A stretch of 64,000 bases of DNA from a virus. Positions within the stretch are counted from its first letter, which is position 1; each line of letters begins with the position of its first letter. This document shows, piece by piece, positions 6,901 to 64,000 of the stretch. The translations under genes were made by a program, and so were the position numbers. Below the pieces are notes generated by a model, which was given only the letters and a program-made list of their open reading frames with translations, was not told where the DNA came from and ran no database searches. The DNA is taken from positions 186,001 through 250,000 of the IMG/VR virus record IMGVR_UViG_3300025121_000011. One strand, 5' to 3'.

Positions 6901-7311
6901 ATGTGGGATAAAATAAAAATACTTTCTAATGTTTTAAAACGTTTTGGATTAGCCAAAGATGTAGATGCACTATTAGAATCTGAAGGATTTTCTGAAGATA
7001 TACATATTTTATTTTTAAAACAGGGAGGAAAAAAAGATCATCTTTTATCCTTATTTCATCATTTACATCATTCAATAAGTGATAGAAAAATAGAACACGA
7101 AGTTCATCATTGTGGTGGGAAACATAAAGGTAAAGATATAAATTATACTATATCTCATTGTTCTCATAATAAACATAGAATAGATAAAGAAGATGCCATC
7201 GGACATGGCACAACACACGGAGATGATCTTTTAGCAGTTAAAATTCATTTTACGGAAAAATGTTCTGATGGTGGTTGGCACATAGAAAGCGGAAAAATAA
7301 AAGATGATTAA
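6901..7311 (+). CDS. His-rich protein with shared N-terminal module
   Basis: The first ~30 residues (WDKIKILSNVLKRFGLAKD, then VDALLES) match the amphipathic module seen on other proteins in this window. The rest is extraordinarily histidine-rich (HHLHHS, EVHHCGGKHKG, SHCSHNKH, GHGTTHGDD) with several cysteines, suggesting metal binding. An in-frame TTG lies at 6889, but GGAG at 6891-6894 with six-base spacing fixes ATG 6901. It overlaps the following gene by 8 bases. Function unknown. Metal binding is an inference from composition. Confidence 0.7.
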   Translation: MWDKIKILSNVLKRFGLAKDVDALLESEGFSEDIHILFLKQGGKKDHLLSLFHHLHHSISDRKIEHEVHHCGGKHKGKDINYTISHCSHNKHRIDKEDAIGHGTTHGDDLLAVKIHFTEKCSDGGWHIESGKIKDD

Positions 7312-8080
7312 TGAATATGAAGCTATTTGCAGTAAAATAAACAACTATGATTGGCATCCAAGTTATGATTCTTTTGAGAATAAAGTATATTCATTAAATA
7401 TTGCTATTACTCAAGATCTTGATAAAATTGTTAATAAAATAACTGTAAATAAACAAGAAATTCATTTAGCTTATTCGGGTGGAGTAGATTCTACAATTAT
7501 TTTATTTAAGCTTTTAAAATATAATATTCCAATTTTTGCTCATACAATTGCTTCGAGTGAAAATCATTTTGATTTTATATATGCAAAAAAAGTGTTATCT
7601 TCTTCTAATATATTATCAAGCGTTAAACATATACCTCATATTTTATCTGTGAAAGAAGATGATCTTATAGAGTCTAACAATATTTTAGAATCAAATGATA
7701 AAAGACCAGATAATTATTATTATTTAATGCGATCTATATTGCATTATACTCAATCAGTTATTAATTGCGATATAATAGATGAACTACTTGGTGGATATTA
7801 TTTGCATTATGGACCGAATATTCCAATGTTTTATGATTGTTTAAATAAGTTAATAAAAGATCATTTATATATTTTAAATAAGATTTCTACACATTTTAAT
7901 ATAGAAGTGTTTCTTCCATATGGTGGAGATAATTTTATGCATAAATGTGAATCTTTTTCTTTTGATGAATTGGTCGGAATAAATCAGCGAAAAAAGCCTG
8001 TATATGAAATCGCAAAATTATGTAATATTCCAGAATATATAATGGAGCGCAAAAAAATGGGATTAGTTTCTGCTTTATAA
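7304..8080 (+). CDS. Asparagine-synthase-like PP-loop protein
   Basis: The ATP-pyrophosphatase motif SGGVDSTI (near residue 56) marks the PP-loop superfamily. The C-terminal end KKPVYEIAKL...IPEYIMERKKMG matches the end of the synthetase domain of AsnB-type enzymes. At 258 residues it holds only the synthetase domain, with no N-terminal glutamine amidotransferase, so ammonia would have to come from elsewhere. In this sugar cluster it may amidate a carboxylated sugar or a peptide instead of making asparagine. The start overlaps the upstream gene, and no strong ribosome binding site is seen. Confidence 0.8.
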   Translation: MINEYEAICSKINNYDWHPSYDSFENKVYSLNIAITQDLDKIVNKITVNKQEIHLAYSGGVDSTIILFKLLKYNIPIFAHTIASSENHFDFIYAKKVLSSSNILSSVKHIPHILSVKEDDLIESNNILESNDKRPDNYYYLMRSILHYTQSVINCDIIDELLGGYYLHYGPNIPMFYDCLNKLIKDHLYILNKISTHFNIEVFLPYGGDNFMHKCESFSFDELVGINQRKKPVYEIAKLCNIPEYIMERKKMGLVSAL

Positions 8081-8099
8081 AATAGAGGTATATAAGTTT

Positions 8100-8606
8100 A
8101 TGTTAAATAAACTACAAAATTTAGAATATGCTCTTTTGTCTTATGGTCTTGCAAAAGAGGCACGTTTTGTGAATTTATTAAATAGAAATATATCCACCGC
8201 TTCTTCTATTGCCGATTCAACGGAGCGTGCAATTCACACGCCATTTAATTCAGAAAAACTAATAGCAACAGATGGCATAAGAATACCTTTTGGTGATTTT
8301 AATGAACCATGGGAAGTGTTTATATTAGAAGGCGACAACTATTCTGGAGTCAGAGCGGGCAGAATACTATTGGGATATCAAGATGAACCAGCTGGAGGAA
8401 TCAAGTGGTTTGAGGAGGATGGTAGACCAGTAATAACTCATTATTTTCTTGATGAAGATTTAAGAGGCAAAAAAGTTATTTCTCAATTGCTAGAAATTTA
8501 TAAAAAGTATGTTTCGGATCGTATTATTATAACTGGTCCATTTTCAGAGCAGGGAAAAGCGGTGGCGGATAAAAAGGCAGATGAAATTGTAGATTATAAA
8601 TATTAA
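8100..8606 (+). CDS. GNAT-like acetyltransferase with N-terminal module
   Basis: Residues 1-32 carry the shared module (LNKLQNLEYALLSYGLAKEA, then RFVNLL). The remainder has a GNAT-like pattern: paired strands (GRILLGYQDEPAGGIKWF, then VITHYFL), then DEDLRGKKVISQLLEIYKKY. The last resembles the acetyl-CoA loop RGxGxxxxLL and following helix, although glycines are reduced. The length, 168 aa, fits tag plus one GNAT domain. AGAGGT lies upstream of ATG 8100. Protein acetylation would be consistent with an effector, but the target is unknown and the GNAT call is moderate. Confidence 0.6.
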   Translation: MLNKLQNLEYALLSYGLAKEARFVNLLNRNISTASSIADSTERAIHTPFNSEKLIATDGIRIPFGDFNEPWEVFILEGDNYSGVRAGRILLGYQDEPAGGIKWFEEDGRPVITHYFLDEDLRGKKVISQLLEIYKKYVSDRIIITGPFSEQGKAVADKKADEIVDYKY

Positions 8607-8615
8607 TGAGGTCAA

Positions 8616-9563
8616 ATGAAGATTGCCATTTTAACATTTAATTATGGATATGCTGGGAAAGTTGTTAATGGTCCTGGCATGTGCTTGGCTAACTTTGTCA
8701 AATTTTTAAACCAAGTAATACCCAGTATAGAAGTAGAAGTTTTTACGCAACTAACACCAATCAAACCGATACCAAATGTGCATTCTATAAGTAATAATAA
8801 GCTCTTATCTAAGACTATTAAATATGTAGACCTCGTACATCATTGGAGCGGAATTACACCGGAGTTAGTTCGAGCAGTTATATATGCAAATCAATTGCAA
8901 AAGAAAGTCATCATCGGTCCAAATGTTTTAGATACTGTAGAGTTTGAAAAAGAAAAAGGATTTCTAAGGAAAGTAGCTTTTGAAAAAATATTAACAGCAA
9001 ATAATCGATTATCTTTTAAGATTTCCAAAGAACATAATATTCCGATAAATAAAGTAATTTCATTTCAAGTTGGACCAGATTTAGACTTATGGACTCCCTC
9101 GGCAGAAAGAGATGGCACAATTCTCTGGAAGGGAAATAGTAAACAATTTGTAAAAGATGTAGATTTTGCTAAAAGAATAGAAAGTAAAATAGGAAATAAA
9201 TATACTTTTAAATTTATTGGATATCCTAATCCTTATGATTATTATAATCATATTGCCGAAGCTCGATTATCTAAGATGACTATAACAACATCACTTAGTG
9301 AAACCATGAATCTTTCTCAGTTAGAATCTTGGAGTTCTGGAATACCATCAGTAAGTCATCCAAAAATTTATATGCATGGAAAAAATTATCAAACAGGCAT
9401 TATAACTAATAAAACTATTGATGAATATATAGATGCAATTAATGAAATTATGCAAAATGAACAACTCTATCAATATTTATCTTTAGGTTGTAGACAATAT
9501 ATTTTAGATGAATTTTCTGCAAGTAAAACTGTAGAGAAGTATTTACAAATTATTAGCAATTAA
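8616..9563 (+). CDS. Glycosyltransferase, GT-B fold (group 1/GT4-like)
   Basis: The N-terminus ILTFNYGYAGKVVNGPGMCLANFVKFL is the glycine-rich opening of GT-B enzymes. The C-terminal half has TILWKGNSKQFVKD, KFIGYPNPYDYY, and a donor-binding-like stretch (ITTSLSETMNLSQLESWSSGIPSVSHP) corresponding to the GT4 E-x7-E region. Length 315 is on the short side. It starts 9 bases after the GNAT-like gene with GAGGT. It likely adds a sugar made by the upstream nucleotide-sugar enzymes. Donor and acceptor are unknown. Confidence 0.8.
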   Translation: MKIAILTFNYGYAGKVVNGPGMCLANFVKFLNQVIPSIEVEVFTQLTPIKPIPNVHSISNNKLLSKTIKYVDLVHHWSGITPELVRAVIYANQLQKKVIIGPNVLDTVEFEKEKGFLRKVAFEKILTANNRLSFKISKEHNIPINKVISFQVGPDLDLWTPSAERDGTILWKGNSKQFVKDVDFAKRIESKIGNKYTFKFIGYPNPYDYYNHIAEARLSKMTITTSLSETMNLSQLESWSSGIPSVSHPKIYMHGKNYQTGIITNKTIDEYIDAINEIMQNEQLYQYLSLGCRQYILDEFSASKTVEKYLQIISN

Positions 9564-11599
9564 TGAGAAAGCCAATGAAAAATATTTTTGGAAAATTGAC
9601 TAAATTAGCAAATGTTTTGTATAAACTTGGTCAAAAAAAAGAAAGTATATATGTTATACTTTTAAGATCATCATTTTTTAAAAGTGCCGTTACTTTATAT
9701 CATGGTGGTTTAGTAGAAAATAAAGATAGTATACAACATAGTGGATTAATACCACAAGTTGGTCCATGGGTAGAAGAGGTTTTAAGTGGTGCAACTGATC
9801 AAGATATTGATTTTGATGAACATGGTTTAGTTTTTGCAGCAGATAAGCATAGATTTGATATGGCGGTATATGCTATGTTATGGCATATAGCAAATAAACT
9901 TGGTAAAAGTGCAAATAATATTACACCAGAAGAAATCATTAAATATGGATTATTAGTTATAATTAAAGAAGGTGAATCTTCATTTGTAAAGCGACCAAAA
10001 GATGATATGCAATGGTATAAAATGCAAGAGGAAATTAGTTATGATACAGGCAACCCCTTGTGGGCAGTTGAACCAGAAGATTGGTTCTCTACGGAAGGAT
10101 CTGATGCGGATATTTTATTAACTGGAAATAAATTATTAAGTTATATCACAAGAAGAGGAGCCTATCCACTCAAGGGATCTATGACTGCCGGTTATGATAA
10201 ATGGTTGCGACAAGAATATATTAAACAAAAAAAGAAGGATCCTCAGCAACATTTGTTTCCTGAATCCACAGAAGATTTACAAAAGAGATTATCTGATATG
10301 TCAGAATCAGAAATCAAAAAAGAGTTGGATGCAATCAAAGCATCTATAAAGTGTACATCAGCCTATGATACTCCATTTTTAAAACAACTCGATGATTCTG
10401 GGCGTTATGATATAGAGTTAGATCCTGATAATACTATTGAACACTTGGAAACCTATCGCTATAAGCCAAAAGGTATTGAACACTGGAATGAAGATAGTAG
10501 GCATCTTACAGATCCCAATTCAGGAAAAACCTTTAAAAGCCGTCCCATTAGATGGGATCCTGAAATTACAGATGTAACAACAATTGAAGATGAGTGGGGT
10601 AAAGATTTTAAGGATCAGTTAAAAGAGGGCTGGTTAGACAAATTGCCTCAAAATCCAAATTTAATATATCGTGGAATGTCATGGGAGGAATATCAATTTA
10701 TACTTAAAACAAATAATATTCAATCATTGGGAGATTATAATTTAGGTGATGAACAAATTGGATTAACTTATTTTAGTACAGATCCAAATAGTGCAGCTTA
10801 TTATGCTCATAGTTTTGCCCCAACTCAATATAAAGCTACACCAGAAAAACCCGCCTATGTAGTTGCTGTTCCCAAAAGAGATGGAGTACCTGTAGCTGGA
10901 ACTGGAGAGCATGAGGTTGGTGTGCGAGGACCGATACCCGCTAATGAAGTTGTTGAAGTTTGGGAAGGGATGCCGTATTATATGACCGCCGGTGGTTCAT
11001 TGGATATTATTAATGACTGGGGCGGTCGTAGAGAAGGGTCTAGAGTATCTCCATTGATAAGTGTGGCATGGAGAAAAATAATTCCTTCTTTAAAAACTAA
11101 AGCTTCTATTCTAAAAACTTTTAATAAACATGAAATAGAAGATGAAGATTTATTAGAATCTAAATCCACAGAAACATCTTCAAAAACTATATTAGAGAGA
11201 GCCATAGAGTATTTTGGACTAACTTATAGCGCAAGAGCAGCTGGTTACATTCTGCCGGATGGCAGGCTTTTGGATTTCTCGGAAAAGACTGGAGAAAGAA
11301 TCTCAGATCATCGAGAGGTAGGATTTTTAGTAGAGGAATATGGACCTTTTGAATATGAATCTGATGCTATGGATAGATTTATGAAGGAAACAGGTTGTAT
11401 AAGATTAGGAGTTTATAATAGATATATGCAGATAGATGCTCAAACAGTACCAACTGAAAAACAAATGAAGACAATACAGTCTATTATAAAAAGATATAAT
11501 ATAGAAGGAGCATCTGTTATAAAGCCCGGCAGAATTTCAGATGAAGAAATAGATTTTCCAACGGCTAATCAAATTTTTAAAATTTTAACAAGTAATTAA
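9563..11599 (+). CDS. Large protein with two ADP-ribosyltransferase-like regions
   Basis: Residues ~5-38 carry the shared N-terminal module (GKLTKLANVLYKLGQKKES). Near residue 46, LYHGG...GLIP followed by GLVFAADKHRF recalls the H-containing first motif of KptA/PARP-type transferases. Near 369-410, LIYRGMS then TYFSTDPNSAAYYAH matches the Arg and STxxxxA motifs of R-S-E type enzymes, and a late EHEVGVRG may supply the acidic part. A C-terminal region (GYILPDGRLLDFSE, then ISDHREVG) recurs in phage proteins but I cannot name it. ATG 9563 overlaps the previous stop; ATG 9575 is an alternative. Possible injected effector comparable in concept to T4 Alt. Confidence 0.65.
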   Translation: MRKPMKNIFGKLTKLANVLYKLGQKKESIYVILLRSSFFKSAVTLYHGGLVENKDSIQHSGLIPQVGPWVEEVLSGATDQDIDFDEHGLVFAADKHRFDMAVYAMLWHIANKLGKSANNITPEEIIKYGLLVIIKEGESSFVKRPKDDMQWYKMQEEISYDTGNPLWAVEPEDWFSTEGSDADILLTGNKLLSYITRRGAYPLKGSMTAGYDKWLRQEYIKQKKKDPQQHLFPESTEDLQKRLSDMSESEIKKELDAIKASIKCTSAYDTPFLKQLDDSGRYDIELDPDNTIEHLETYRYKPKGIEHWNEDSRHLTDPNSGKTFKSRPIRWDPEITDVTTIEDEWGKDFKDQLKEGWLDKLPQNPNLIYRGMSWEEYQFILKTNNIQSLGDYNLGDEQIGLTYFSTDPNSAAYYAHSFAPTQYKATPEKPAYVVAVPKRDGVPVAGTGEHEVGVRGPIPANEVVEVWEGMPYYMTAGGSLDIINDWGGRREGSRVSPLISVAWRKIIPSLKTKASILKTFNKHEIEDEDLLESKSTETSSKTILERAIEYFGLTYSARAAGYILPDGRLLDFSEKTGERISDHREVGFLVEEYGPFEYESDAMDRFMKETGCIRLGVYNRYMQIDAQTVPTEKQMKTIQSIIKRYNIEGASVIKPGRISDEEIDFPTANQIFKILTSN

Positions 11600-12359: not shown

Positions 12360-13344
12360 GTCTGGTCTTTTTTATCTTGCAAAAAGTCTTGGGGATAGAT
12401 TAAAATCTGAGGGTCATCATGTTATTTATGTTCCTAAATCTAAATATTTACTTCAAGGTTCTATATTTCAAAGAGATTATTTAACTCCCACTGATAATAA
12501 ATTATTAGATAATGAAACAGTTCATTGGTTTGATAAACGGTATCCAATAGAAAATCAAATATCTGAGATGATTATTAAATATAAAGTTGATCTTTTGATT
12601 TCATTTGAAACTTTAATGGAGAAATCTCAGTGGGTTTCACGAGTAAAGCAAAGAACTGGGATCAAAGTTATTGACATTCCAATGGTTGAATGGGTAAATG
12701 ATAAACTTTTAAATGGTCGCTCTTATTCTATTTTTGATGAGATTTGGTGTTTAACCGAACAATGTTATTCATATTTTAAAATTTATCCAGATGCAAAAAA
12801 AATTATTTGGAATTGGGTTGATCCGTTTTTGTTTCATACAGTAGAAAAGCAAGATGGTATTGTGCGTTTTTATCACGCCGGAAGCTTAAATTCGGAATAT
12901 TCTAGTAAAAATACGGAATTAGTTATTCAAGCTTTTGACCTCTTTTTAAGAGAGAGTCCTGATGCTATATTAATTGTTTCGGGAAATATAACAGATAAGA
13001 CAAGTCTTCGACTTATTAAAAAGCATGAAAATATTTTTATTACAAATGGTGTTTTAGATAGAAAAGATATTGCAAAATTATATCAAGACAGCCACTGTGT
13101 AATAGCACCCTCCTCAAGAGAGGGTTTGGGCTTGAGTCTTTATGAGGCCAAAGCATGTGACTGTTTGGTAATAACAACAGATATGCCACCAATGAACGAA
13201 TGTGATACTAAATACTTATGTAAAGTTAAAAATCTTAAAAGAGATCATAAATTAACACCACTTGGAATTATAGATGTTAAAGAAATATATGAGCAAATTA
13301 AACAAGTTTATGGAGATATAAATGTCAGATGTAAAGATAAGTAA
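12301..13344 (+). CDS. Glycosyltransferase family 4-like
   Basis: GT-B protein. The C-terminal donor-binding half shows FYHAGSLNSEYSSKNTELV, ILIVSGNI, and VIAPSSREGLGLSLYEAKAC, the E-x7-E block of GT4 enzymes. The N-terminal half (KTYLHESGLFYLAKSLGDRL) is the acceptor domain. ATG 12301 is chosen because GGAGAG lies just upstream and no better start gives the N-terminal strand. It therefore overlaps the GT2 gene by 59 bases in another frame. Its own stop overlaps the tubulin-like gene. Confidence 0.82.
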   Translation: MHLSNLKPNQTILIKTYLHESGLFYLAKSLGDRLKSEGHHVIYVPKSKYLLQGSIFQRDYLTPTDNKLLDNETVHWFDKRYPIENQISEMIIKYKVDLLISFETLMEKSQWVSRVKQRTGIKVIDIPMVEWVNDKLLNGRSYSIFDEIWCLTEQCYSYFKIYPDAKKIIWNWVDPFLFHTVEKQDGIVRFYHAGSLNSEYSSKNTELVIQAFDLFLRESPDAILIVSGNITDKTSLRLIKKHENIFITNGVLDRKDIAKLYQDSHCVIAPSSREGLGLSLYEAKACDCLVITTDMPPMNECDTKYLCKVKNLKRDHKLTPLGIIDVKEIYEQIKQVYGDINVRCKDK

Positions 13345-14773
13345 GGAAATACTTAATAGCTCTAAAACTACGGCAATAATTACTAAAGAAAATGAAGAAC
13401 TTTTAGCGGCTTTTATGAGCGCAGAAAAAATTTCAAAGGAGAAGTCACAAATGGATCAAGAAACATTAGATAAACTTAAGGCTAGAAAATTAGAGAAGCA
13501 AGCTTTAGAAGTAAAGTCAGAAGAAGTAACTTCAGAAGGAGAGGTAGATATGATGGATGTAATAACTAATCAAGAAGTTAGTATTAATATTGGGGTGGTT
13601 GGTATTGGTCAAGCTGGTTCTAGAATTGCCGAGGAGTTTCATAAGTGCGGATATGATGTTGGCGTTATCAACACTTCTGCTCAAGATCTAAAATTCATTG
13701 ATGTGATGCCACATCAAAAGTTATTATTGGAAGGTAGTTTGGGTGGAACTGGAAAAAATCTGGTATTGGGTCGAGAAATTTTTGAAGTAAATGAATCTTT
13801 GGTTAGAAGTTTTATAGAAGATATAGCAGAAGGAAATACTATGATCTTTTTAGCTGTTTCTGGAGGTGGTGGCACGGGTGCTTCATCAGTATCTTCTGTT
13901 ATTCCAATGATGTTTGAATTGGGTATTCCGGTTGGTGTAATTTATGTATTGCCTAAAGCTACAGAGGACGCCCAATCTAAGAAGAATGCTGTAGAAACTC
14001 TTGCGAAGTTGGCTCGTCAAACTACTGATAATTTAATCTCATCTTTAATTGTAGTGGATAATGCAAGAATAGAAAATATTTACGGCGGATTAGGTCAAGC
14101 TCAATTCTGGAAAACAGCCAATGCTGCTATTGTAGAACCATTACATTTGTTTAATACCAAAACAGCTCAGCCATCTAGATTTACTTCTTTAGATCCTTCA
14201 GATTTTGGAAGAATCATCTCTTGTGGCGATTGCTCAATATATGGTGTTATTGAAGTAGAAAATTATCTTGATGAAACAGCATTAGCAGAAGCAGTAATGG
14301 ATAGTTTAAGTGGAAACATGCTAGCTGAAGGGTTTGATTTAAAACAAACTAGAGCTGGTGGAGTAATTATTGTAGGTTCAGAATCTGCTTTGGAACAACT
14401 TCCATCTGTAAATATTGATTATTGTTTTCATATAATTTCAGATGAAACAAATGGTGCAAATATTTTCCAAGGAATTTATTCTGATAATAAGATGGCTGAA
14501 GATAAAATAAAAATATATAGTTGGTTTTCGGGATTAGGTCTTCCTCAGGATAGAATAGAAAATTTAAGAAAAGAAAGCAAATTAGCATCTTCCGTGGCCG
14601 CTGAAAAAGAGAAGGCTAGGAATTCTCAAATGACGTTAGATTTAGAAGAAGATAAAATAGCTAGCGCTGCTGATAAGATCCATAATAAAATAAGAGAAAA
14701 AAATTCTGGATTTAATCGGTTACAGGGCGGCGCTCGAAAGTCTATTCTTGACAAACGTAAGCATAGCAGATAA
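13322..14773 (+). CDS. FtsZ/tubulin-like GTPase
   Basis: The tubulin superfamily signature SGGGGTGAS lies at residues ~179-187. The first nucleotide loop GVVGIGQAGSRIAEEF is near 90, and LDPSDFGRII resembles the catalytic T7 loop with its Asp. An ~85-residue charged N-terminal extension, probably coiled coil, precedes the GTPase core, and the C-terminus is basic (KSILDKRKHSR). Phage tubulins such as PhuZ form filaments that position replicating phage DNA, and other phage members exist. Which role applies here is unknown. It overlaps the upstream glycosyltransferase by 23 bases and has its own GGAG. Confidence 0.8.
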   Translation: MSDVKISKEILNSSKTTAIITKENEELLAAFMSAEKISKEKSQMDQETLDKLKARKLEKQALEVKSEEVTSEGEVDMMDVITNQEVSINIGVVGIGQAGSRIAEEFHKCGYDVGVINTSAQDLKFIDVMPHQKLLLEGSLGGTGKNLVLGREIFEVNESLVRSFIEDIAEGNTMIFLAVSGGGGTGASSVSSVIPMMFELGIPVGVIYVLPKATEDAQSKKNAVETLAKLARQTTDNLISSLIVVDNARIENIYGGLGQAQFWKTANAAIVEPLHLFNTKTAQPSRFTSLDPSDFGRIISCGDCSIYGVIEVENYLDETALAEAVMDSLSGNMLAEGFDLKQTRAGGVIIVGSESALEQLPSVNIDYCFHIISDETNGANIFQGIYSDNKMAEDKIKIYSWFSGLGLPQDRIENLRKESKLASSVAAEKEKARNSQMTLDLEEDKIASAADKIHNKIREKNSGFNRLQGGARKSILDKRKHSR

Positions 14774-14865
14774 TGTTTGAAATTGTATATTAATTATTTA
14801 ATAATTGATATATGATGGAATCATATTCAAATCTCACTAAGAGTTTGTTCCATTTGGAGAATAAG

Positions 14866-17800
14866 ATGGATAGAGAAGAGAGGCAAAAGAAACTCATAAA
14901 TATTTTAAAAAGTTCTATTGATAATAATCTCAATCTTCCAGAAGACCAAATTAGAGAAAGTTTTAGTAATACTGCTTTTGCCTTTCCCTATAAATTAGAC
15001 ACCTTAGAAAATCCCGGTTTTATTGATGAATATATAGTTACTTCAGAAGAGATTGAGAGTTATATTGAGCAATATCAAAAAGTTGCTAATATTCTTGAAA
15101 ATGGACTTGCTAAATTTTTAAGATTGCAAGAAAAAGTTAAAGCTTTTATGGCCACAAATTCTTTAACAAAAGATATAGAACCAGAGAGACTTTTCAAAAG
15201 AATTTATAGATTAGATAATTATGCTAAAAATTTATTTATGATGTTTATGCTGCCGACAGGAGGTTCTTATGGATATAATAAATATCTTGAGCGAAGTATA
15301 AATAAATCATCTACTTCCCGCGAGGATTATCTTCAAAAAATAGAGCGCATAGAAATGGATGCCATTGAAATAGTTAGGAGTATTCCAAGTGATATAGATG
15401 ACTTAGTTAAAATATATGATTTAAATTCTGAAGATGAATTAGCAGAGGCAATATTTTATTTAAGTAAATCTCCTAAACTTATTGGTGTAAATAGATATAT
15501 AAATCAGAATACTCCAGAATCTTTTTCTCCTATTGCATTTGAAATTCATCCACAACAGATGTTAGAAGCTGGTAGAAAGTATAAGACATTATCACTTTAT
15601 GGGTATGAACCACAAGGACCACAAGGATTTCCAGAATTCCAGTCACATACTAAAAAAGAAAAGCAATATAAATATAATCCAGATTTAGAATTACCAGAAT
15701 CTGATTATAGAGGTAAGGGATTTTTAATAAATAAATTTATTGATGAACAAATTTCTAATTACTTTGAAAGATATTATGAAAAAACAGATAAAGAGATTAT
15801 TAATGCCACTAGAGATGAATTGCAACAAAGATTAGTTAAATCTCTAAATGAAAGAGTAAGTAGTCTTGAGGAAATGATTCAGGTGTATGGTTTTCCTGAA
15901 TTTCTTATTAAAGATATAAAATCAAGAATTTATTCTAATGATTTTGGAAAACTTATGTCTTCTGGAATTAATACTGAAAAAGAATATAGTGACAATTCTA
16001 ATGAGATTTTAATACATAGCCTTATAACGAATGGAAATTTTTCAGCTCTTCGGTATATAATTAAATTATCAGAATCAAAAAATGATAATCAAGCAAAGGA
16101 TTTTTTTAAAAAAGCCATAAAAGAACAAGTATCTGATATAGATTTTCGATCTGAAGAAAATGCTAAAGTTGATATTTTAGATATCATAACAGAAATTGAT
16201 AGAAAATATGGTGAGAAAATTAGACAACAGGGCTTGCAAGCTGTTTTCCCCTATGCTTGGAAAGCTATATTTCAAATACCAACTATGTATGGGCTAAATT
16301 TTGATATAGATACATATGCAGTTAGCAGTAGAAGCGGTATTTTGGGTATTATTTCAAAAATATATAAAGAAAAAATAAGAACAGCTTTAGAGGAGCAAGC
16401 CTATGGAAATGGTAAAAAATTAAAAGATACTTCAACTTTTAAAGAAATAATATTTCTTAGCAGAATTAAACACCTAGGATTTTCTGGTTACAGGAAAATG
16501 AATCAATACATGGATGAGGAAAAAGAAAATTACGAGCCATTTGATAAAGTTTCCGAAGAACCAAATCCAAAAGAGCGGGCGCGCATACTTAATACATTAA
16601 AAGATACAGTAAAAGATCCTGAAAATATTTCAGAAATATATGAAGCATACGATGAATATATTAAAAGATATAAAGATTTATCAGTTCCAGGATTGCAAGA
16701 AAAGAAAGACATTTGGAATCATTTCTTATTAAAAGTAATTGGGAAATTATACCGTCAGGAAGAAGCTTATATAACCGGAAAGACAAATCAATTATTTGAT
16801 AAATTTCCAGATATCATTGTGCCAGATCTCCCAGCTATATCTTGGGATAAATTTTTAATTTCTTCGGCATCATTTGGATGCGCATCTACTCCGATTACAA
16901 TTCTTAAAACATTACAAGATGGTATAAAAACGGGATTAATTCCACTTTTTGTAAAATTATCATCTGTTGATGAATTTAACTCCATTGAAAGAATGGAAGG
17001 TTTTTTATTAAAATTAGTTCAAATATATAATCTTTATAAAAATAACCGAGACATTTTTAATTTAAGACTCGTACAACCTTTTCCAGATTTATATAAAAAA
17101 ATTACCGGAACAAAAGAAGAGCGAATAGAGAAAATTTTACAAATTGCCAATTTATTAGATAATTATCAATTTAAAGAAGAAATTGTTGCATCAAAATATA
17201 TTGATAAAATTAATCTTGATATTATTAAAAAAGCAATAAAAACATATGCAGAATATAAAAGAGCTATTAAATCTATTGAAACAGAAAATAAAGACAGATC
17301 AAGTGATGAAAATGAAGAAGAGGGCGAGTGGGTACATGATGTATGGGTTCCACATGAGTCAAGCGAGTCAAGCAATTTAAAGAATACTGATTTTATAAAT
17401 GTATTAATTAAAAATATACAAGATATTAGAGAAAAAACAAAATCATCAGAAGATATTTTTCCGAAGGATATGGAAAACATATTACTATCTTTGCCAGCAG
17501 ATATTAGTTTGGATAAGTTTATAGATTATTTTGAAATTAATATTGGAGAATTATCAGGATCTCAAGCTCAATTGGCAAGGGCAAAACTTGCTAGATTATC
17601 ATATGGCCTATCCATTTATGGGCAGATTTCAACTGTGATGGAATATTATAATGAAGCTGAGAAAAAAAATTCTCATTTATTTGATGCAGAATTTAGTGGG
17701 AAAAACTTTAGATTTCGTGTTTTAAGGGATCTGGATCCATATCATTTCCAGGTTGGAGCTGACACTGATTGTTGTCAAATGGTTGGCGGAGCGGGTGAAC

Positions 17801-18429
17801 AAGCTGCTGTCGATTCTTTTGTAAATAGTTTAGCGGGAGTAATTGTTTTAGAGGTTATGATTGATGGAGAATGGCAACTTGTATCTCAATCTTACTTCCA
17901 TTATGTTCCAAGGCAAAATATTTTTATTCTTGATAATATTGAAGCCGGAAAATGGTCTGAAAAGAATTCAACTTTAAAAAGTATAACTGGTTATAATTTT
18001 CCTGAAATTTATGCATTATTAGGGCAGCATTTAAAAGAAAAAGGATATCAAGATGTTCTGGTTGGAATAAATTATACAAAAGTTATTACAAGATCTGAAT
18101 TTAAAAGAGATAAGAGAGATACGGATCTACGAAGATTTAAAGTAGATGATCCATATACAGATTATGAACCAGAAGACTCTATTTCGCTTTCTAATCCTAA
18201 ATTTAAAATTGTACAAAGTAAGATAAAGAATTTTATTATAGATTGGGAAATTAATAAAACAGCGCAAATCAGTCGAGAACTTATACCTTGTTTATTCCCA
18301 AGTCAAAGAATTCAAAAAATTACGCAAATAAAAATTACACCACTTAAGAAGGCTCTTTTGTCTCTTGGGCTAAAGGCTGAGGTGCGGCAAATTAACAAAC
18401 TAATTGGTCTTTCACTATCTTCTAAATAA
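14866..18429 (+). CDS. Very large protein with candidate C-H-D domain and C-terminal module
   Basis: About 1190 residues, mostly helical and charged, with no nameable fold for the first ~950. A more conserved-looking region near the end (ADTDCCQMVGGAGEQAAVD, SQSYFHYVP, FILDNIEAGKW) presents Cys, His and Asp/Asn in the order of a cysteine-type catalytic triad. A segment resembling an acetyltransferase or ligand-binding half follows. The last ~30 residues (LKKALLSLGLKAEVRQINKL) match the module found at the N-terminus of other proteins here. An in-frame ATG at 14812 lacks a ribosome binding site. GGAG at 14856-14859 supports 14866. Possibly a virion-packaged effector. Confidence 0.7.
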   Translation: MDREERQKKLINILKSSIDNNLNLPEDQIRESFSNTAFAFPYKLDTLENPGFIDEYIVTSEEIESYIEQYQKVANILENGLAKFLRLQEKVKAFMATNSLTKDIEPERLFKRIYRLDNYAKNLFMMFMLPTGGSYGYNKYLERSINKSSTSREDYLQKIERIEMDAIEIVRSIPSDIDDLVKIYDLNSEDELAEAIFYLSKSPKLIGVNRYINQNTPESFSPIAFEIHPQQMLEAGRKYKTLSLYGYEPQGPQGFPEFQSHTKKEKQYKYNPDLELPESDYRGKGFLINKFIDEQISNYFERYYEKTDKEIINATRDELQQRLVKSLNERVSSLEEMIQVYGFPEFLIKDIKSRIYSNDFGKLMSSGINTEKEYSDNSNEILIHSLITNGNFSALRYIIKLSESKNDNQAKDFFKKAIKEQVSDIDFRSEENAKVDILDIITEIDRKYGEKIRQQGLQAVFPYAWKAIFQIPTMYGLNFDIDTYAVSSRSGILGIISKIYKEKIRTALEEQAYGNGKKLKDTSTFKEIIFLSRIKHLGFSGYRKMNQYMDEEKENYEPFDKVSEEPNPKERARILNTLKDTVKDPENISEIYEAYDEYIKRYKDLSVPGLQEKKDIWNHFLLKVIGKLYRQEEAYITGKTNQLFDKFPDIIVPDLPAISWDKFLISSASFGCASTPITILKTLQDGIKTGLIPLFVKLSSVDEFNSIERMEGFLLKLVQIYNLYKNNRDIFNLRLVQPFPDLYKKITGTKEERIEKILQIANLLDNYQFKEEIVASKYIDKINLDIIKKAIKTYAEYKRAIKSIETENKDRSSDENEEEGEWVHDVWVPHESSESSNLKNTDFINVLIKNIQDIREKTKSSEDIFPKDMENILLSLPADISLDKFIDYFEINIGELSGSQAQLARAKLARLSYGLSIYGQISTVMEYYNEAEKKNSHLFDAEFSGKNFRFRVLRDLDPYHFQVGADTDCCQMVGGAGEQAAVDSFVNSLAGVIVLEVMIDGEWQLVSQSYFHYVPRQNIFILDNIEAGKWSEKNSTLKSITGYNFPEIYALLGQHLKEKGYQDVLVGINYTKVITRSEFKRDKRDTDLRRFKVDDPYTDYEPEDSISLSNPKFKIVQSKIKNFIIDWEINKTAQISRELIPCLFPSQRIQKITQIKITPLKKALLSLGLKAEVRQINKLIGLSLSSK

Positions 18430-28045: not shown

Positions 28046-28047
28046 AT

Positions 28048-29952: not shown

Positions 29953-29963
29953 GGGAGTGGCTT

Positions 29964-31913: not shown

Positions 31914-31919
31914 CATAAA

Positions 31920-32918: not shown

Positions 32919-32928
32919 CGAAGAAATA

Positions 32929-33000: not shown

Positions 33001-33020
33001 ATATAAAGTAGAGGTTTAAA

Positions 33021-33434: not shown

Positions 33435-33435
33435 A

Positions 33436-33828: not shown

Positions 33829-33839
33829 ATGGAGTAATT

Positions 33840-37043: not shown

Positions 37044-37044
37044 T

Positions 37045-52874: not shown

Positions 52875-53111
52875 ATGATTAATAGATTAATTAAAATTGC
52901 AGATTTTTTAGACCGTTCTGGGCGCCAAGAAGATGCGGATTTTATGACTGGACTTCTCATAGCTTATAAAAAGGCGCAATCCGGTATAGATGGTATTAAT
53001 ATAGAATCAGATTACATACCTGAAAGTTTAGAAATTCCAGATGATGAATACGATCTTTTAATGGATGTATTTTCTTCTTTAGGTAAAAGTCTAAATAAGG
53101 ATGTTAAATAA
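52875..53111 (+). CDS. Short protein made mostly of the shared module, 78 aa
   Basis: MINRLIKIADFLDRSGRQED then ADFMTGLLIAYKKA is one of the clearest examples of the shared module. Only ~40 acidic residues follow, so this may be the tag nearly on its own. It lies between two structural genes, which supports the idea that the module belongs to virion-associated proteins. Stop overlaps the ATG of the next gene by one base. Confidence 0.7.
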   Translation: MINRLIKIADFLDRSGRQEDADFMTGLLIAYKKAQSGIDGINIESDYIPESLEIPDDEYDLLMDVFSSLGKSLNKDVK

Positions 53112-55409: not shown

Positions 55410-55454
55410 ATGTACATGCTTTATAAAAATATAATATATTTTGGTGCCCAATGA
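55410..55454 (+). CDS. Candidate 14-aa leader peptide before topA
   Basis: A short frame MYMLYKNIIYFGAQ has a good GGAG site at 55401-55404 and ends in an ATGA overlap with the topA start, which itself lacks a clear ribosome binding site. This layout suggests translational coupling. The preceding ~95 bases after 55312 hold no other gene that I see. Confidence 0.4.
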   Translation: MYMLYKNIIYFGAQ

Positions 55455-58400
55455 AATTAGTAATTGTAGAGTCTCCCAACAAATGTTCCAAGATAAAAAA
55501 AATCTTGGGAAGTAATTATCTTGTCATGGCCTCTGTTGGTCATATCATGGATTTATCAAAAGAAAAGAAAGATAAAACTTCAAGATTTTGGAACGGAATA
55601 GATTTGAGTACTTGGGATGTGAATTATAGTGTTAGTCCTGGAAAAAAAGATGTAGTAAGTAATTTAAAAGACGCTGCAAAAAAATGTGAAGAAATCTATA
55701 TCGCAACAGATGATGATCGCGAAGGAGAAGCTATAGCTTTTAATATATTAGATATTCTTCCTAAAAAAGGTATCAAAATACATCGAGTTATATTTAAGAC
55801 TATTACACAAAAGGATATTTTAGATGGTATTAAAAATCCTATTCCATTTAATGATAATCTATATGCAGCTCAACAAGCTAGACGAATCACAGATAGATTG
55901 GTAGGATTTAAAGTTAGTCCAATCATGTGGACAAAAGGTTTAAGAAAAACAAGCGCAGGAAGGGTGCAATCTGCCGCTCTTAAGTTTATTGTAGATAGAG
56001 AACGAGAGATTAGAGGTTTTAAACCAGAAGAATATTGGACTATTAAAGCCAAAACTGATTTAAAATTTGATGCTAGTTTTTATGGAATAGATTCTAAGAA
56101 ATATATTCCAAAAACAAAAAAGAAAGTAGATGAAATTTTAAAAGATTTATCAAAAGATATAACTGTTGCTTCTTATGTAACAAAACAAAGAGAGAGATCT
56201 CCAGAGCCGCCTTTTATTACAGCATCTATGCAAAAAGATGCTGGTAATAAATTTGGATGGACTGGTAAAAAAGTTATGGATATAGCACAGAATTTATTTT
56301 CAAGTGGGTTGATTACGTATCACCGTTGTTTCCCTGGGTATGTAAGAATATCTACATCTAAAGGTCTAATTCCTATTAGAGATATTAAGATAGGTGAAGG
56401 AGTTCATACTATCAATGGAATTAAAAACGTAACCGATATAGTTAAAAATAAGAATCGAGATATATTTAAACTAAACACCAAACACGGATATCAAATTTTC
56501 GGATCTAATAATGAACCATTTATGATTTATGATTGTGAGAATAGAGTGCCGGTTTGGAAAAGATTAGATAAATTGAGAGCCGGTGATCTAATAGCTCTTA
56601 GTGGGCAAGAAGGCTTTTCTGAGGTTAAAAATAATATCTTTGAATACACTTGTCCATTTGAATCAGAAATGGATTCAAATAACCTATTAACATGTAATAT
56701 TTGCAATAAAAAATTCAAGTCTTTGTCACCACATATCAAAAGATATCATAAGTTAACGGGCAAAGAATATGTTAAAAAATTCGGAAAAACAAACTTACAC
56801 ACAAACTCTGTAGAAAAATTTAATATTCCTAAAATAATGACTCCGGATTTGGCAAAAATATTAGGATATATATTATCCGAAGGGTGTATATCTAAGAACG
56901 GAAGAAATATTTTATTTTATAATAATTCCAGAGAGGTTTTGAATGATTTTGCGGTCTCTTTTAATAAAATATTTGGTACACAATACAGTCCAATGTATAA
57001 TTCTAATAAATTCGAAGTTAACTCAAAAAGAATAGTTTGCTTTTTGAGTTATTTGGGAATGAATAGTAAACTTTCAATAGAAAAAGAGATTCCACATATA
57101 ATATTTAAATCTGATTTAGAATCTAAAACTGCCTTTATTAAAGCATTTTGGGAAGGAGACGGAAGTTATGATTCAATCATTACTAATTCCGAAAAACTTA
57201 AAAATGATCTAAAATTATTACTTCTTTCTATCGGAATACCTACTGGATGCCATATTAATAGGGAGTACACTGGTTTTTCGATTGGAAATTCATCATATAA
57301 GGTTCAGCTTTCTGGATTTTATATTCAAAAGTTTTTTAATTTAATCGGAGAGCCGATTTCTAAGCACAGAATGGAGCAAAAAGAGAAATTACTAGAAAGA
57401 ACACCAAATGGACAGCATTGGTCAAATAATAAGTTAACAACCGATAATGTTATTTGGGATAAAGTTATTGATAGCTCCTATTCACATAAAGAGGATACCT
57501 GGGATCTTACTGTTGAAGAGCAGCATCATTATATTGCAGAAGGATTTATTGCTCACAATACTGATAGTATTCGGTCAGATCCAGCAAAAATAATTGATAT
57601 TAGAGATAGAATTGAAAAATTACATGGAAAACAATATTTATCTCCACAAACCAGAAAATATGCTTCAGGCGGAAATTCTCAAGATGCGCATGAAAGTATT
57701 AGACCTACTTTTGATACGGTTTCTGTATCATTAGGAACAGATGAACGAAAATTATTAGAATTAATTACTAATAGATTTATGTCCTCGCAAATGGCAGATG
57801 CCATATTTGACCAGGCTGCTGTTAGATTGGAAACAACGGGAAAAGATCACACATACGAGTTTCGCGCCAATGGATCAGTCCAAAGATTTGATGGTTTTTT
57901 AAAGGTATATGGAGCAGCATCAAAAGACAACGTTCTACCAGCATTAAAGAATGGACAAAAGATTGGGGTTGATAAGTATGAATCAAGTCAGCATCACACA
58001 GAAGCCCCCGCCAGATATACGGATCCCGGAACATTTACAGATAAGATGGAAAAGGAGGGTATCGGACGACCAGCTACTTATGCTTCTACAATGGATACTT
58101 TAATTGATCGCAACTATGTTGAGAGAGAAAAACAGAAAATTAAAGCTACAGAAGTAGGTATCATGGTTTCTGATTATTTAACGCATTTCTTTAAAAATGT
58201 TACTAGTTCTGCCTTTACAGCTACAATGGAAACAGAGCTTGATGAAATCGCTGAAGGCAAAAGACAATTTAAAACATCTATGGATACATTTTTTAATCAA
58301 TTAACATTAGAAGTAGACGCAGCCAAAACATCTAAAGTTCAAATATTTAAAACAGATATAGATTGTAGTAGTTGCAATGATGGAACTAAAATGATTAAAA

Positions 58401-58951
58401 AGATTTCTGATTTAGGTGTATTCTTAGGATGCGATAATTGGCCTAAGTGTGGACACACAGTTAATTTTGATACTGATGGAAATATGGTAAATGAAGAGGT
58501 GGATACAGGCTATGAATGTCCAATTTGTGGAAATATATTAGAAAAAAGAAAGGGACCATATGGAGAATACTATCGCTGTAAGGGCTCTGCTTGTAGTTTT
58601 ACAGGAAAAGAAAAAGATGGATCCGTAGTTGCTTCCGGAAAGTCTGCTTCTGTAGATCTGGGCGTTCCCTGTCCTAAATGTAAAAAAGGAACTTTGCTTA
58701 AAAGAGAAAGTGCGAAAGGCCCTTGGGTTGGATGTAGCGAGTTTAAAAATGGTTGTAAATTTACAGGTTCTATTGATGATTCTGGTAGTATTGTAGTTAA
58801 AAAGACACAGACAAAAACTTCTAGTGGGAAAACAACAAACGAATCATGCCCACTTTGTAAAACTGGAAAATTAATTGAAAGAAAATCTAAATTTGGTGCC
58901 GGAACTTGGTTAAGTTGTGATGGTTTCCCAAAGTGCAGATATAAGAAATAG
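55451..58951 (+). CDS. topA: DNA topoisomerase I (type IA) with in-frame intein
   Basis: Relaxes negatively supercoiled DNA. Host part ~755 aa. The TOPRIM domain opens KLVIVESPNKCSKIKKILG with YIATDDDREGEAIAF (DxDxE). The TYPE IA core has TSAGRVQSAAL, and GLITYHR joined to TDSIRSDP contains the active-site tyrosine. The C-terminus has four zinc ribbons (CSSCNDG, CPICGNI, CPKCKKG, CPLCKTG). The start at 55451 is fixed by the invariant N-terminus. The intein interrupts the codon block immediately after the catalytic Tyr-His-Arg, so splicing is needed for activity. Confidence 0.93.
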   Translation: MKLVIVESPNKCSKIKKILGSNYLVMASVGHIMDLSKEKKDKTSRFWNGIDLSTWDVNYSVSPGKKDVVSNLKDAAKKCEEIYIATDDDREGEAIAFNILDILPKKGIKIHRVIFKTITQKDILDGIKNPIPFNDNLYAAQQARRITDRLVGFKVSPIMWTKGLRKTSAGRVQSAALKFIVDREREIRGFKPEEYWTIKAKTDLKFDASFYGIDSKKYIPKTKKKVDEILKDLSKDITVASYVTKQRERSPEPPFITASMQKDAGNKFGWTGKKVMDIAQNLFSSGLITYHRCFPGYVRISTSKGLIPIRDIKIGEGVHTINGIKNVTDIVKNKNRDIFKLNTKHGYQIFGSNNEPFMIYDCENRVPVWKRLDKLRAGDLIALSGQEGFSEVKNNIFEYTCPFESEMDSNNLLTCNICNKKFKSLSPHIKRYHKLTGKEYVKKFGKTNLHTNSVEKFNIPKIMTPDLAKILGYILSEGCISKNGRNILFYNNSREVLNDFAVSFNKIFGTQYSPMYNSNKFEVNSKRIVCFLSYLGMNSKLSIEKEIPHIIFKSDLESKTAFIKAFWEGDGSYDSIITNSEKLKNDLKLLLLSIGIPTGCHINREYTGFSIGNSSYKVQLSGFYIQKFFNLIGEPISKHRMEQKEKLLERTPNGQHWSNNKLTTDNVIWDKVIDSSYSHKEDTWDLTVEEQHHYIAEGFIAHNTDSIRSDPAKIIDIRDRIEKLHGKQYLSPQTRKYASGGNSQDAHESIRPTFDTVSVSLGTDERKLLELITNRFMSSQMADAIFDQAAVRLETTGKDHTYEFRANGSVQRFDGFLKVYGAASKDNVLPALKNGQKIGVDKYESSQHHTEAPARYTDPGTFTDKMEKEGIGRPATYASTMDTLIDRNYVEREKQKIKATEVGIMVSDYLTHFFKNVTSSAFTATMETELDEIAEGKRQFKTSMDTFFNQLTLEVDAAKTSKVQIFKTDIDCSSCNDGTKMIKKISDLGVFLGCDNWPKCGHTVNFDTDGNMVNEEVDTGYECPICGNILEKRKGPYGEYYRCKGSACSFTGKEKDGSVVASGKSASVDLGVPCPKCKKGTLLKRESAKGPWVGCSEFKNGCKFTGSIDDSGSIVVKKTQTKTSSGKTTNESCPLCKTGKLIERKSKFGAGTWLSCDGFPKCRYKK
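56327..57559 (+). mobile_element. Intein with LAGLIDADG nuclease and Ros-like zinc finger in TopA
   Basis: 411 residues in frame (293-703). Cys1 in CFPGYVRISTSKG, end FIAHN followed by Thr+1. LAGLIDADG motifs are ILGYILSEG (Glu) and FIKAFWEGDG (Asp). Between splicing block B and the nuclease lies CNICNKKFKSLSPHIKRYH, a C2H2 finger followed by KLTGKEYVKKFG, resembling the Ros/MucR type. At the block B position the sequence reads GSNNEPF, with Glu where His is expected. Confidence 0.9.
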
Positions 58952-61208: not shown

Positions 61209-61703
61209 TTAAGATAAAAAGCTATATGAACCCCAAGGAAGGATTTCTATTTTCTCATTCGGAAGTCTTGTCAGTTTTTCCGAAAAATACTTTAAAATTT
61301 CTGTTCTTAATGACAAGATTATATTTTGCATAGAATCTGAAGCGAGATTTCCTTCTACAAGGAGAATCATTGTGCCCGAAAGATTCTCTTTAGGTATATA
61401 CCAATAGATACTAACCTGAAAGTGAGCACCTTTTTGAATTGGAGTTTTATGTAAATTAATAAGACAACGAATATTGGAGGGGCTTGGTAAAACTTCTGAT
61501 GTTAATACCTCGGGAGTTAATACTTCTGGAATTAATACTTCTGGAATTAATACTTCTGGAATTAATACTTCTGGAATTAATACTTCGGGAATTTCAAGTT
61601 CTACTTCTTGATTTATATTTTCTTGGTTGATTTTATGTAAAGATTTAATAATGGTAAATGGTTCTGATTTTATAAATGGGTTGATTTTGTTAATTTTCCT
61701 CAT
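61209..61703 (-). CDS. Unknown protein with PEVLI pentapeptide repeats
   Basis: 164 residues. After a basic N-terminus, residues ~37-72 are about seven tandem five-residue units PEVL(I/T), encoded by 15-base repeats. The remaining ~90 residues form a strand/helix domain (HFQVSIYWYIPKENLSGTMI, IEILPWGSYSFLS) that I cannot name. AGGA precedes ATG 61703. It faces the Fe-S carrier gene and lies downstream of the kinase gene on the same strand, likely one transcript. Confidence 0.6.
   Translation of the reverse strand: MRKINKINPFIKSEPFTIIKSLHKINQENINQEVELEIPEVLIPEVLIPEVLIPEVLIPEVLTPEVLTSEVLPSPSNIRCLINLHKTPIQKGAHFQVSIYWYIPKENLSGTMILLVEGNLASDSMQNIILSLRTEILKYFSEKLTRLPNEKIEILPWGSYSFLS
61490..61595. 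repeat. 15-bp tandem repeats (minisatellite)
   Basis: About seven head-to-tail copies of a 15-base unit, plus-strand form ATTAATACTTCTGGA, with the central four identical and the outer ones carrying single changes. They are in frame with the reverse-strand gene, so copy-number change would lengthen or shorten the PEVLI segment without frameshift. Confidence 0.85.
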
Positions 61704-61724
61704 ATTAAATTGTCCTATAAATTA

Positions 61725-62849
61725 TTAAATTTTAAACACTCCAACATCTACCAGTTTTATCTCTCGATCTTTTTTTCCAATCATAATATTTTCTTCGTGT
61801 ACATCTTTCCATTTAATACCATAATCTTCTAAAATTCGCAAAAAATCCAGAAAAGATTGAAACTCTGAACTCGGATTATCTTCCGGTTCATTATAATGTA
61901 TTGGAAAAGGAGAAGAATATAAATCATAAAGGTCAAAATTATCATCTATATATATAATTATTTCTCTATATATTTTATCTGGAATATTTCCTTGATATAT
62001 TCCAGAATAGCTTAAGTAATTTTTAAGAAAAGAACGAAGCAAAGAATATGTCATTTCAAATGTATTTTTAGCATCAGTTAAACGTTTTAAAACTTCTCGT
62101 CTGGTGGGAACAACGATTTGTTTAGATAAACTTATTAATTGTTCATCTTTTGAATCTATTAAGATTTTCTGAATTTGGCGCTTAAATTCTTCTGGATGAT
62201 ATATAAGATTAACCATATCTGTTAAATTTCCTTTAAGCTCCCCAAAGCTAAAAGCCTTTTTTATAGAACTTGGAACGGGATCTAATTCTTCCATTAAGAT
62301 AATATAATATCGAATAGTGGTATTATATTTTTTAGATTCTACAGAACCGGTAAATGTACCATATATATTTGGAATATGTTTTTGTAATTCTGGAGCAATG
62401 TTTTGTGAAGCTTGTTGAATCGCCCTCCATACTTCTACATCTTGAGCTTCTCCCCACTCTAATTGTTTGCCATAAAACCCTATTTTTGCAGATACGGGTT
62501 TTCCTTCATATACAGCGGAATATACTGTAGCATATTTTCCAACTCCTAAAAATCCAGAATTATCTCCTCTGGTAACCGGAGTAATTCCATGTTGATGTAG
62601 AGCGGTAAGTTCTTCATCCTTCATAGACTCTGGAGGAATAGTTACATTTTTTAATAACTCTTCTTCAGATTCATATTTTTCAGGAAATTCTTTTACCGCT
62701 TCTTCATGCCAAGGCTCATCATATTCATCGGGTTCATCGGGTTCATTAGGTTCATCATATTCTGAAGCTAATGAATCAACTTCATTAGCATAAGATTTAA
62801 GATGCAATCGACTTAAAATACTAGATAATTTTAATAACCTATTTTTCAT
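61725..62849 (-). CDS. Protein-kinase-like protein with N-terminal module
   Basis: 374 residues. Residues 1-32 are the shared module (KNRLLKLSSILSRLHLKSYA, then NEVDSLA), followed by an acidic EPDEPDEY linker. Kinase features: glycine loop GVGKYATVYSA with AKI Lys, hinge ILMEELD, catalytic loop KDVHEENIMI (Asp and Asn), and DVG in place of DFG in IKLVDVG. The protein stops five residues after DVG, so there is no activation segment or later C-lobe. About 150 helical residues lie before the catalytic loop instead. Probably a virion or early effector kinase. Substrate unknown. Confidence 0.75.
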   Translation of the reverse strand: MKNRLLKLSSILSRLHLKSYANEVDSLASEYDEPNEPDEPDEYDEPWHEEAVKEFPEKYESEEELLKNVTIPPESMKDEELTALHQHGITPVTRGDNSGFLGVGKYATVYSAVYEGKPVSAKIGFYGKQLEWGEAQDVEVWRAIQQASQNIAPELQKHIPNIYGTFTGSVESKKYNTTIRYYIILMEELDPVPSSIKKAFSFGELKGNLTDMVNLIYHPEEFKRQIQKILIDSKDEQLISLSKQIVVPTRREVLKRLTDAKNTFEMTYSLLRSFLKNYLSYSGIYQGNIPDKIYREIIIYIDDNFDLYDLYSSPFPIHYNEPEDNPSSEFQSFLDFLRILEDYGIKWKDVHEENIMIGKKDREIKLVDVGVFKI

Positions 62850-62897
62850 TGTTCACCTTAAATATTTAATTTTATATTAATAGTTATCAAGATTAGC

Positions 62898-62928: not shown

Positions 62929-62934
62929 AATTGA

Positions 62935-63423: not shown

Positions 63424-63473
63424 ATAAATTTGCCTCTGAATTTGCTATTAATATTTTATAGCAAGATAGACAG

Positions 63474-63479
63474 TATAAT
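63474..63479 (+). promoter_or_regulatory. Candidate -10 element in divergent gap
   Basis: A perfect TATAAT lies in the 104-base gap between the divergent genes starting at 63423 (-) and 63528 (+), about 50 bases before the forward gene. No good -35 is found at normal spacing (ATATTT at 17 bases), so confidence is low in this AT-rich DNA. Confidence 0.3.
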
Positions 63480-63527
63480 CACAGAAATATTTCATGAATC
63501 CACAACAATCTATGGGTGAATTGTTGA

Positions 63528-63809
63528 ATGAAAACCCCACACAACATACGATACCCAATCAATAATTCAGAAGCAATTCATTTTATACATATAACAAATA
63601 TACATTGGCTGAAGAGTCTTTCAATACCTGATAAAAGAAAACGTTGCAAAGAAACGCTACATATAATTAAAGAAGTACAATTTATATTAAATGAACTTAA
63701 AAAAGAGTTAGATAAATTAAAAAGAGAAAATAAAATAGATTTAGATATTTCAGAAGCATATTTAGTTATTTTAAAGTGGTATGCTACACATTGGAGACTT
63801 AAAAAGTGA
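63528..63809 (+). CDS. Hypothetical protein, 93 aa
   Basis: Not recognised. Basic, with a helix-rich C-terminal part (VQFILNELKKELDKLKRENK) that could form a coiled coil. GGTGA about nine bases upstream is a modest ribosome binding site. The stop overlaps the GTG start of the next gene, indicating coupled translation. Confidence 0.6.
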   Translation: MKTPHNIRYPINNSEAIHFIHITNIHWLKSLSIPDKRKRCKETLHIIKEVQFILNELKKELDKLKRENKIDLDISEAYLVILKWYATHWRLKK

Positions 63810-64000
63810 AACTAAATTCTGCTAAAAGATTGTATAAACTCGGAATTTATTTATTCGATCAAGCTATGAATCAAGAACTTTTATCTTTAGTTAAAATTGC
63901 AAAAGAAAGTTCTGGAGAAATGCCGGGTTTAGAATTAATTGAAGCATCTACTGAAATCAAAACTTATTTAAGTAACTATGTTAATAATTTTGATGATCCT
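63806..64000 (+). CDS. Partial gene with N-terminal module, runs off window
   Basis: GTG 63806 overlaps the upstream stop (GTGA). The visible 65 codons begin KLNSAKRLYKLGIYLFDQAM then NQELLSLVKIAKES, a version of the shared module, and continue into LELIEASTEIKTYLSNYV. The frame is open to the window edge, so the downstream domain and function cannot be seen. Confidence 0.6.
   Translation, partial: MKLNSAKRLYKLGIYLFDQAMNQELLSLVKIAKESSGEMPGLELIEASTEIKTYLSNYVNNFDDP

Follow-up and report, generated by a model that had tools for sequence, protein, structure and literature searches.

Among the internal proteins of T-even phages, only the capsid-targeting sequence (CTS) is conserved (PMC3012670, PMC9026906). 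In T4 this sequence, carried by IPI-IPIII and Alt, is an N-terminal element of 10-20 residues that is cleaved by gp21. Here we describe a module of about 31 residues, referred to below as the tag, that is shared by otherwise unrelated proteins encoded in a 64,000-nucleotide stretch of viral DNA (the window), which spans positions 186001-250000 of the 335,169-base IMG/VR virus record IMGVR_UViG_3300025121_000011 (the source genome; a window coordinate + 186000 gives the genome coordinate). Like the T4 CTS, it is a conserved N-terminal element on unrelated, exchangeable and variable proteins of one virus that are likely effector cargo (PMC9026906, PMC3012670), whereas the tag is longer, is predicted to form a hairpin, is found internally and C-terminally as well, and sometimes occurs in several copies per protein. 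Because the two are unlike in length and position, and packaging would be a prediction here, we set the tag apart from the T4 CTS and regard it as a probable new variant among protein-targeting tags.

The propeptides of phiKZ and SPN3US ejection proteins are likewise conserved N-terminal regions of giant-phage proteins, proposed to act in head loading (PMC5694885), but they mostly exceed 100 residues and occur on few proteins, whereas the tag is short and lies on more than 100 unrelated families. Encapsulation peptides of bacterial microcompartments (BMCs) are short amphipathic helices at either terminus by which unrelated enzymes are directed to the inside of a protein shell (PMC11157265); they are single helices of 15-20 residues with a flexible linker, are cellular and serve a shell of BMC proteins, whereas the tag is a predicted two-helix hairpin found only in phages. 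The P1 Dar proteins DarA and Hdf come close to the role proposed below: they travel inside the phage head and are delivered along with the DNA, and the N-terminus of DarA is cut by the prohead protease, but the passages drawn on here describe no short tag shared by the whole cargo set (PMC12810830).

An earlier note on the window had proposed a shared N-terminal module of about 30 residues at eight loci, with a weaker member at 5910. The module is present at all eight main N-termini (6901, 8100, 9590, 22011(-), 45300, 52875, 62849(-) and 63821), which are the top eight among 219 window open reading frames (ORFs) when scored with a profile of 17 related-phage tags from which the source genome was left out (the relatives-only profile). 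The enrichment over random helical N-termini on which the note had staked its claim is present: none of 21,900 shuffled ORFs matched this profile at E<=0.01, and among 4,527 control-phage ORFs a single one matched it at E<=0.1. An external profile of 128 tags from other contigs placed seven of the eight as its top seven, and leave-one-out profiles recovered seven of the eight (E 1e-6 to 0.013), the tag of the 63806 gene reaching E 1.8. The proposed member at 5910 was dropped, as no profile tried matched it. The window tags and the proteins that bear them are as follows.

6901-6993, + strand: N-terminal tag of a His-rich 136-residue protein (gene 6901-7311, or from a possible TTG start at 6889); leave-one-out E 8e-4, relatives-only E 0.004.
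8100-8192, + strand: N-terminal tag of a 168-residue, weakly GNAT-like protein (gene 8100-8606; Acetyltransf_1 0.034); leave-one-out E 1.8e-4, relatives-only 4e-6.
9590-9682, + strand: tag near the N-terminus of a 678-residue protein with an unconfirmed ART-like label (ORF 9563-11599; internal ATG 9575); leave-one-out E 0.013, relatives-only 0.007, genome search 3.7e-11 with a profile of which it is a member.
21916-22011, - strand: N-terminal tag of a 465-residue protein without assigned function (gene 22011-20614); leave-one-out E 1.2e-4, external profile 8.8e-4.
45300-45389, + strand: N-terminal tag of a LysM-GH24 lysozyme (gene 45300-46118; Phage_lysozyme 2.2e-17, LysM weak); leave-one-out E 5.7e-5.
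52875-52973, + strand: N-terminal tag of a nearly tag-only 78-residue protein between fibre genes; relatives-only E 5e-7, external profile 8.5e-7 to 1.3e-5.
62754-62849, - strand: N-terminal tag of a 374-residue putative kinase-like protein (gene 62849-61725; Pkinase 0.0024, homologue at genome 4687(-) 2e-8); leave-one-out E 1.1e-6.
63821-63916, + strand: N-terminal tag of an 886-residue putative kinase-like protein that leaves the window (GTG start 63806); relatives-only E 0.028, leave-one-out 1.8; the orthologue in G001 is also tagged.
18329-18426 (approximate), + strand: ORF 14812-18429 may carry a diverged tag at its C-terminus, ITPLKKALLSLGLKAEVRQINKLIGL, seen by eye and not found by the profiles; the G001 counterpart (L124) has an N-terminal tag.

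Among the cargo functions named in the earlier note, lysozyme is well founded, with LysM only weak. The GNAT assignment at 8100 is weak, and the kinase assignment is weak for the 61725 protein itself and clear for its homologue at genome 4687(-). The dual ART-like label found no database support (AlphaFold2 predicted local distance difference test score, pLDDT, 38). Some of the kinase-like labels are best taken as putative.

The note had also suggested a profile search of the genome and its relatives, which yielded four new genome sites; tags also occur in many IMG/VR contigs. The first profile, an alignment of the eight window N-termini, was run against the whole genome and returned these eight together with sites at genome 113276(+), 112191(-), 28777(+) and 4687(-); three are N-terminal, and the fourth is internal in a protein that has the module at its own N-terminus too. 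A wider profile gave 16 matches in the source genome at E<=0.021. Among the new cargo outside the window are an M15 peptidase (Pfam 1.6e-10) and, at 4687(-), a Ser/Thr-kinase-like protein (2.3e-8) homologous to the window 61725 protein; tagged kinase-like and M15 genes lie at 111-114 kb. At genome 254030-254729 is a Sod_Fe_C-domain protein (6.8e-15) whose N-terminus resembles the tag below threshold.

The canonical form of the module is MIKELIKLANxLDxKGLxKEADYLDxIIKKA, to which the ending KKA or KIA given in the earlier note applies, less so within the window. Raw match counts are inflated by overlapping loci and near-identical contigs (e.g. G020 and G034). The consensus of 171 distinct tags features L5, L8, A9, L12, D13, G16, L17, K19, E20, A21, D22, L24, D25 and I27/28, and AlphaFold2 run on the tag alignment predicts two helices, at 2-14 and 18-32, forming a hairpin (mean pLDDT 95.8). 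Of these tags, 121 start no more than 15 residues from the N-terminus, where random placement in the same proteins would give 23, and 64 begin exactly at residue 1. C-terminal placement is not enriched overall (18 observed, 18.7 expected), and the C-terminal tags come mostly from one orthologous family. Within one genome the tags share 49-63% protein identity. Codon position 2 is conserved more than position 3 and identical residues are encoded near-randomly, and therefore selection acts on the tag as protein; a DNA-level recombination element is ruled out by the same codon-position pattern.

It is quite unlikely, on our assessment, that the hairpins simply pair with one another into helical bundles, building multi-protein complexes without a dedicated receptor, an arrangement that would be compatible with virion loading. 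The predicted amphipathic hairpin would suit such pairing, and nearly tag-only proteins and those with two or three tags could act as connectors, but the conserved charged or polar residues D13, K19, E20 and D25 go beyond what a generic bundle needs, even if some may be helix caps.

When databases were scanned with a degenerate DNA pattern encoding LDxxGLxKEADxLD, 81 viral-contig stretches (78 distinct sequences) matched, mostly at the first residue of an ORF, and bacterial and archaeal genomes totalling 257 Gb gave no match. A looser pattern had two cellular matches, 107 and 432 residues from the start of their frames; neither was a tag, and the idea that the tag is of cellular or host origin was rejected. 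Profile searches of whole records found as many as 26 tags in a single record (of 223 kb), and seven control records, 2.58 Mb together, had none. Leucine- and lysine-rich amphipathic helices are common, which leaves room for the neutral view that the N-termini are chance helices or a DNA recombination element without protein function. We give that view next to no credence: chance helices are ruled out by the shuffled ORFs, the control ORFs and the cellular-genome scan, and the codon-position pattern speaks against the element.

No Pfam, PHROGs or NCBIfam family covers the tag or is common to 106 tagged proteins, and the best PDB match had E 0.38. A tblastn search of INPHARED with the consensus gave nothing real, a 31-residue query having limited power, and a full-text search of the open-access literature for consensus strings found no published description. 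Thermus phages and very large relatives with a PrkA-type kinase gene had no tags, apart from one weak match (0.07) in LR756511. Where the capsid gene is found in tagged records, it belongs to the same major capsid protein (MCP) family as that of the source genome. When records were instead picked by MCP and not by tag, 10 of 24 held a tag at E<1e-3, two of them near-identical to the source genome; the tag system is therefore patchy within the clade. As far as tested, the module is confined to this one phage clade.

Once the tags are masked, 181 tagged ORFs fall into 123 clusters. The recognisable cargo consists mostly of cell-wall hydrolases (GH24, Hydrolase_2/SleB type, M15, LysM, PG_binding), and other cargo domains are kinase, GNAT, GDSL lipase, cupin, methyltransferase, PilZ, ArdC N-domain and HAD. 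The cargo of LysM/cell-wall hydrolase type is GH24 in the source genome and G001; in other relatives it is Hydrolase_2 (SleB type), LysM being present in some and absent in others. One 854-residue ORF has the order tag, endolysin (lysozyme), tag, kinase, and a G006 protein has an ART-like part and a GNAT domain separated by a sub-threshold internal tag (E 0.18). In the members of one orthologous family, from many contigs, a GGS.LQ.. linker is followed by the tag towards the C-terminus; the source-genome member ends inside the linker, without a tag. Some proteins carry two or three tags and others are nearly tag-only. The tag is accordingly shared and modular, and is under protein-level selection on unrelated proteins.

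Since cell-wall hydrolases and LysM or peptidoglycan-binding domains are typical of tail lysins, attachment to the tail, baseplate or fibres, on the outside of the virion instead of in the head interior, has to be weighed. The 52875 protein lies between fibre genes, one tagged member matches a tail fibre family and another a virion structural family, and the tagged genes of locus L219 sit amid surface-protein-like genes. Kinase-like, GNAT, methyltransferase and ArdC-like cargo would, however, act in the cytoplasm, and the variable tagged locus described next adjoins terminase and portal, not tail genes; we consider the outer location distinctly improbable.

This locus is present in nine contigs, in which one or two tagged genes lie between a gene for an acidic protein and the gene preceding terminase, followed by that gene, terminase, portal and, where the contig reaches, the maturation protease and MCP (PHROGs matches 7e-65 for terminase, 3e-54 for portal, 3e-11 for protease and 3e-71 for MCP, the last being phrog_2522). 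The cargo at this site comes from at least five unrelated families, which resembles the T4 pattern of varying cargo with a retained element, seen at the head cluster of relatives and not in the source genome. The source genome holds the same head cluster at 80-107 kb (MCP at 105997-107010), with terminase, portal, maturation protease and MCP 64, 64, 42 and 79% identical to the proteins of the tagged contigs. Its head proteins also include the acidic protein at genome 85635 and an 885-residue protein at genome 102641, and the maturation protease (genome 97135-100590) has a long C-terminal part. Its terminase (genome 87366-90239) and portal (90249-94109) ORFs are 957 and 1286 residues long against 590 and 562 in relatives, and perhaps contain further inteins. 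The T4 head is of the gp23 family, whereas searches of the source genome with PF07068 (gp23 family) and the myoviral sheath Pfam families gave no matches. The phiLo prohead protease, used as a bridge query, had no match there either; a maturation protease homologue is encoded.

In G031, G023 and G033 a second conserved tagged set (metalloprotease-like, peptidoglycan-binding-like and basic-tailed proteins) is flanked by the genes for GroEL and PurA, and its counterpart in the source genome is beside PurA at 27-30 kb. One protein of this core cluster has a Gly-zipper-like region and several have very basic tails, as in ejected proteins. The GroEL gene adjoining this set in three records allows the thought that the module serves as a signal to a chaperone or protease or for export, such as one for phage GroEL or a degron, but a structured, conserved hairpin differs from known hydrophobic or disordered signals of chaperones and degrons, and the tag is by its sequence not of Sec or lipoprotein type, lipoproteins of the same phage having normal signals; this reading is very improbable. 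A C-terminal motif, approximately RIxKxAxLxSxEF...(L/F)VRR, stands at the extreme end of the tagged core-cluster proteins L217, L218 and L222, also in L150 and L166, and is common to many core-cluster proteins. A PIRRNLDY-like peptide conserved in MCP recurs in a pair of orthologous tagged kinase-like proteins, and a tagged G021 protein has a similar peptide (loci L120, L121, L208), which could be chance.

Docking to a scaffold or compartment of the infected cell outside the virion (a replication factory, TubZ-like filament, phage nucleus or similar) is in our view unlikely, if worth serious attention. Tagged genes are dispersed through the genome, a TubZ/tubulin-like protein is encoded at 13322-14773, and microcompartments use short helical docking tags (PMC11157265). 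Yet an import signal for a phage nucleus would be expected on replication and recombination proteins, and the UvsW, DnaB, topoisomerase I, ribonucleotide reductase, dUTPase, PhoH and TubZ proteins encoded in the window, which include DNA-processing enzymes expected in a replication compartment, all lack the tag. Cell-wall hydrolases would be odd compartment cargo, and related phages have tagged genes in the head cluster.

The explanation that we favour, at about even chances and by analogy with known head-targeting systems, is that the tag is a cargo-loading signal for the virion head, docked to a head precursor. The amphipathic helical hairpin of 31 residues would be a portable tag for protein-protein docking, recognised by a single partner that the phage encodes; this partner would most likely be part of the head precursor (its scaffold, core or inner shell), and tagged proteins would be gathered into the prohead and then delivered with the DNA. 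We infer the binding partner, packaging, ejection and possible tag removal. The head precursor is favoured for three reasons: tagged genes with exchangeable cargo occupy the head cluster, the same tag is found on lysins and on cytoplasmic effectors, even fused, and the pattern matches that of T-even internal proteins, of which only the targeting sequence is kept (PMC3012670, PMC9026906). The capsid-loading interpretation of the earlier note is upheld in part, as to a shared, selected and modular tag, its restriction to phages as far as tested, the changing cargo in the relatives' head cluster and the cell-wall enzymes among the cargo; its T4 likeness stays an analogy, given the length, hairpin form and additional internal and C-terminal positions of the tag.

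Several points weigh against head loading. At the site in the head cluster, the source genome lacks a tagged gene, as do G030 and G022. A 178-kb record with the same MCP has no tag, and such same-MCP contigs mean that tag and head are not obligately linked. Internal and C-terminal tags are unlike the T4 CTS, and no cleavage site was identified in tagged proteins. The tagged cell-wall enzymes could be ordinary endolysins or tail lysins instead, and virion packaging in these uncultivated phages is a prediction from sequence.

With a probability slightly short of even, this jumbo-phage clade may fill its particles with a large and fast-changing arsenal (cell-wall lysins, kinases, acetyltransferases, metalloproteases and many proteins without assigned function) by means of a single universal address tag, any gene becoming virion cargo by gaining the hairpin at either end or between domains. 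How head proteins are chosen in giant phages is unsettled, SPN3US/phiKZ relatives having long propeptides and an unconfirmed scaffold counterpart (PMC5694885). If head loading holds, virion cargo in this clade would be readable from sequence, more than 100 families of uncharacterised proteins would gain functional hints, and the tag could be a natural loading handle for protein delivery.

Other features of the window were also recorded. The TubZ/tubulin-like GTPase at 13322-14773 matches Pfam Tubulin (5e-13) and the TubZ-like C domain (3e-6). A cluster at 28042-39699 that includes SpoVR and a serine kinase of PrkA type, a set belonging to bacterial stress and sporulation, is also found in the Thermus phages phiYS40, TMA and phiLo. 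Inteins are present in SpoVR (37045-39699), the B12-dependent ribonucleotide reductase (40781-43546) and topoisomerase I (55451-58951), with LAGLIDADG domains in SpoVR and topoisomerase, and the sugar dehydratase-like gene at 3723-5867 also appears interrupted. The gene at 61209-61703 (-) encodes a protein with tandem IPEVL-type repeats.

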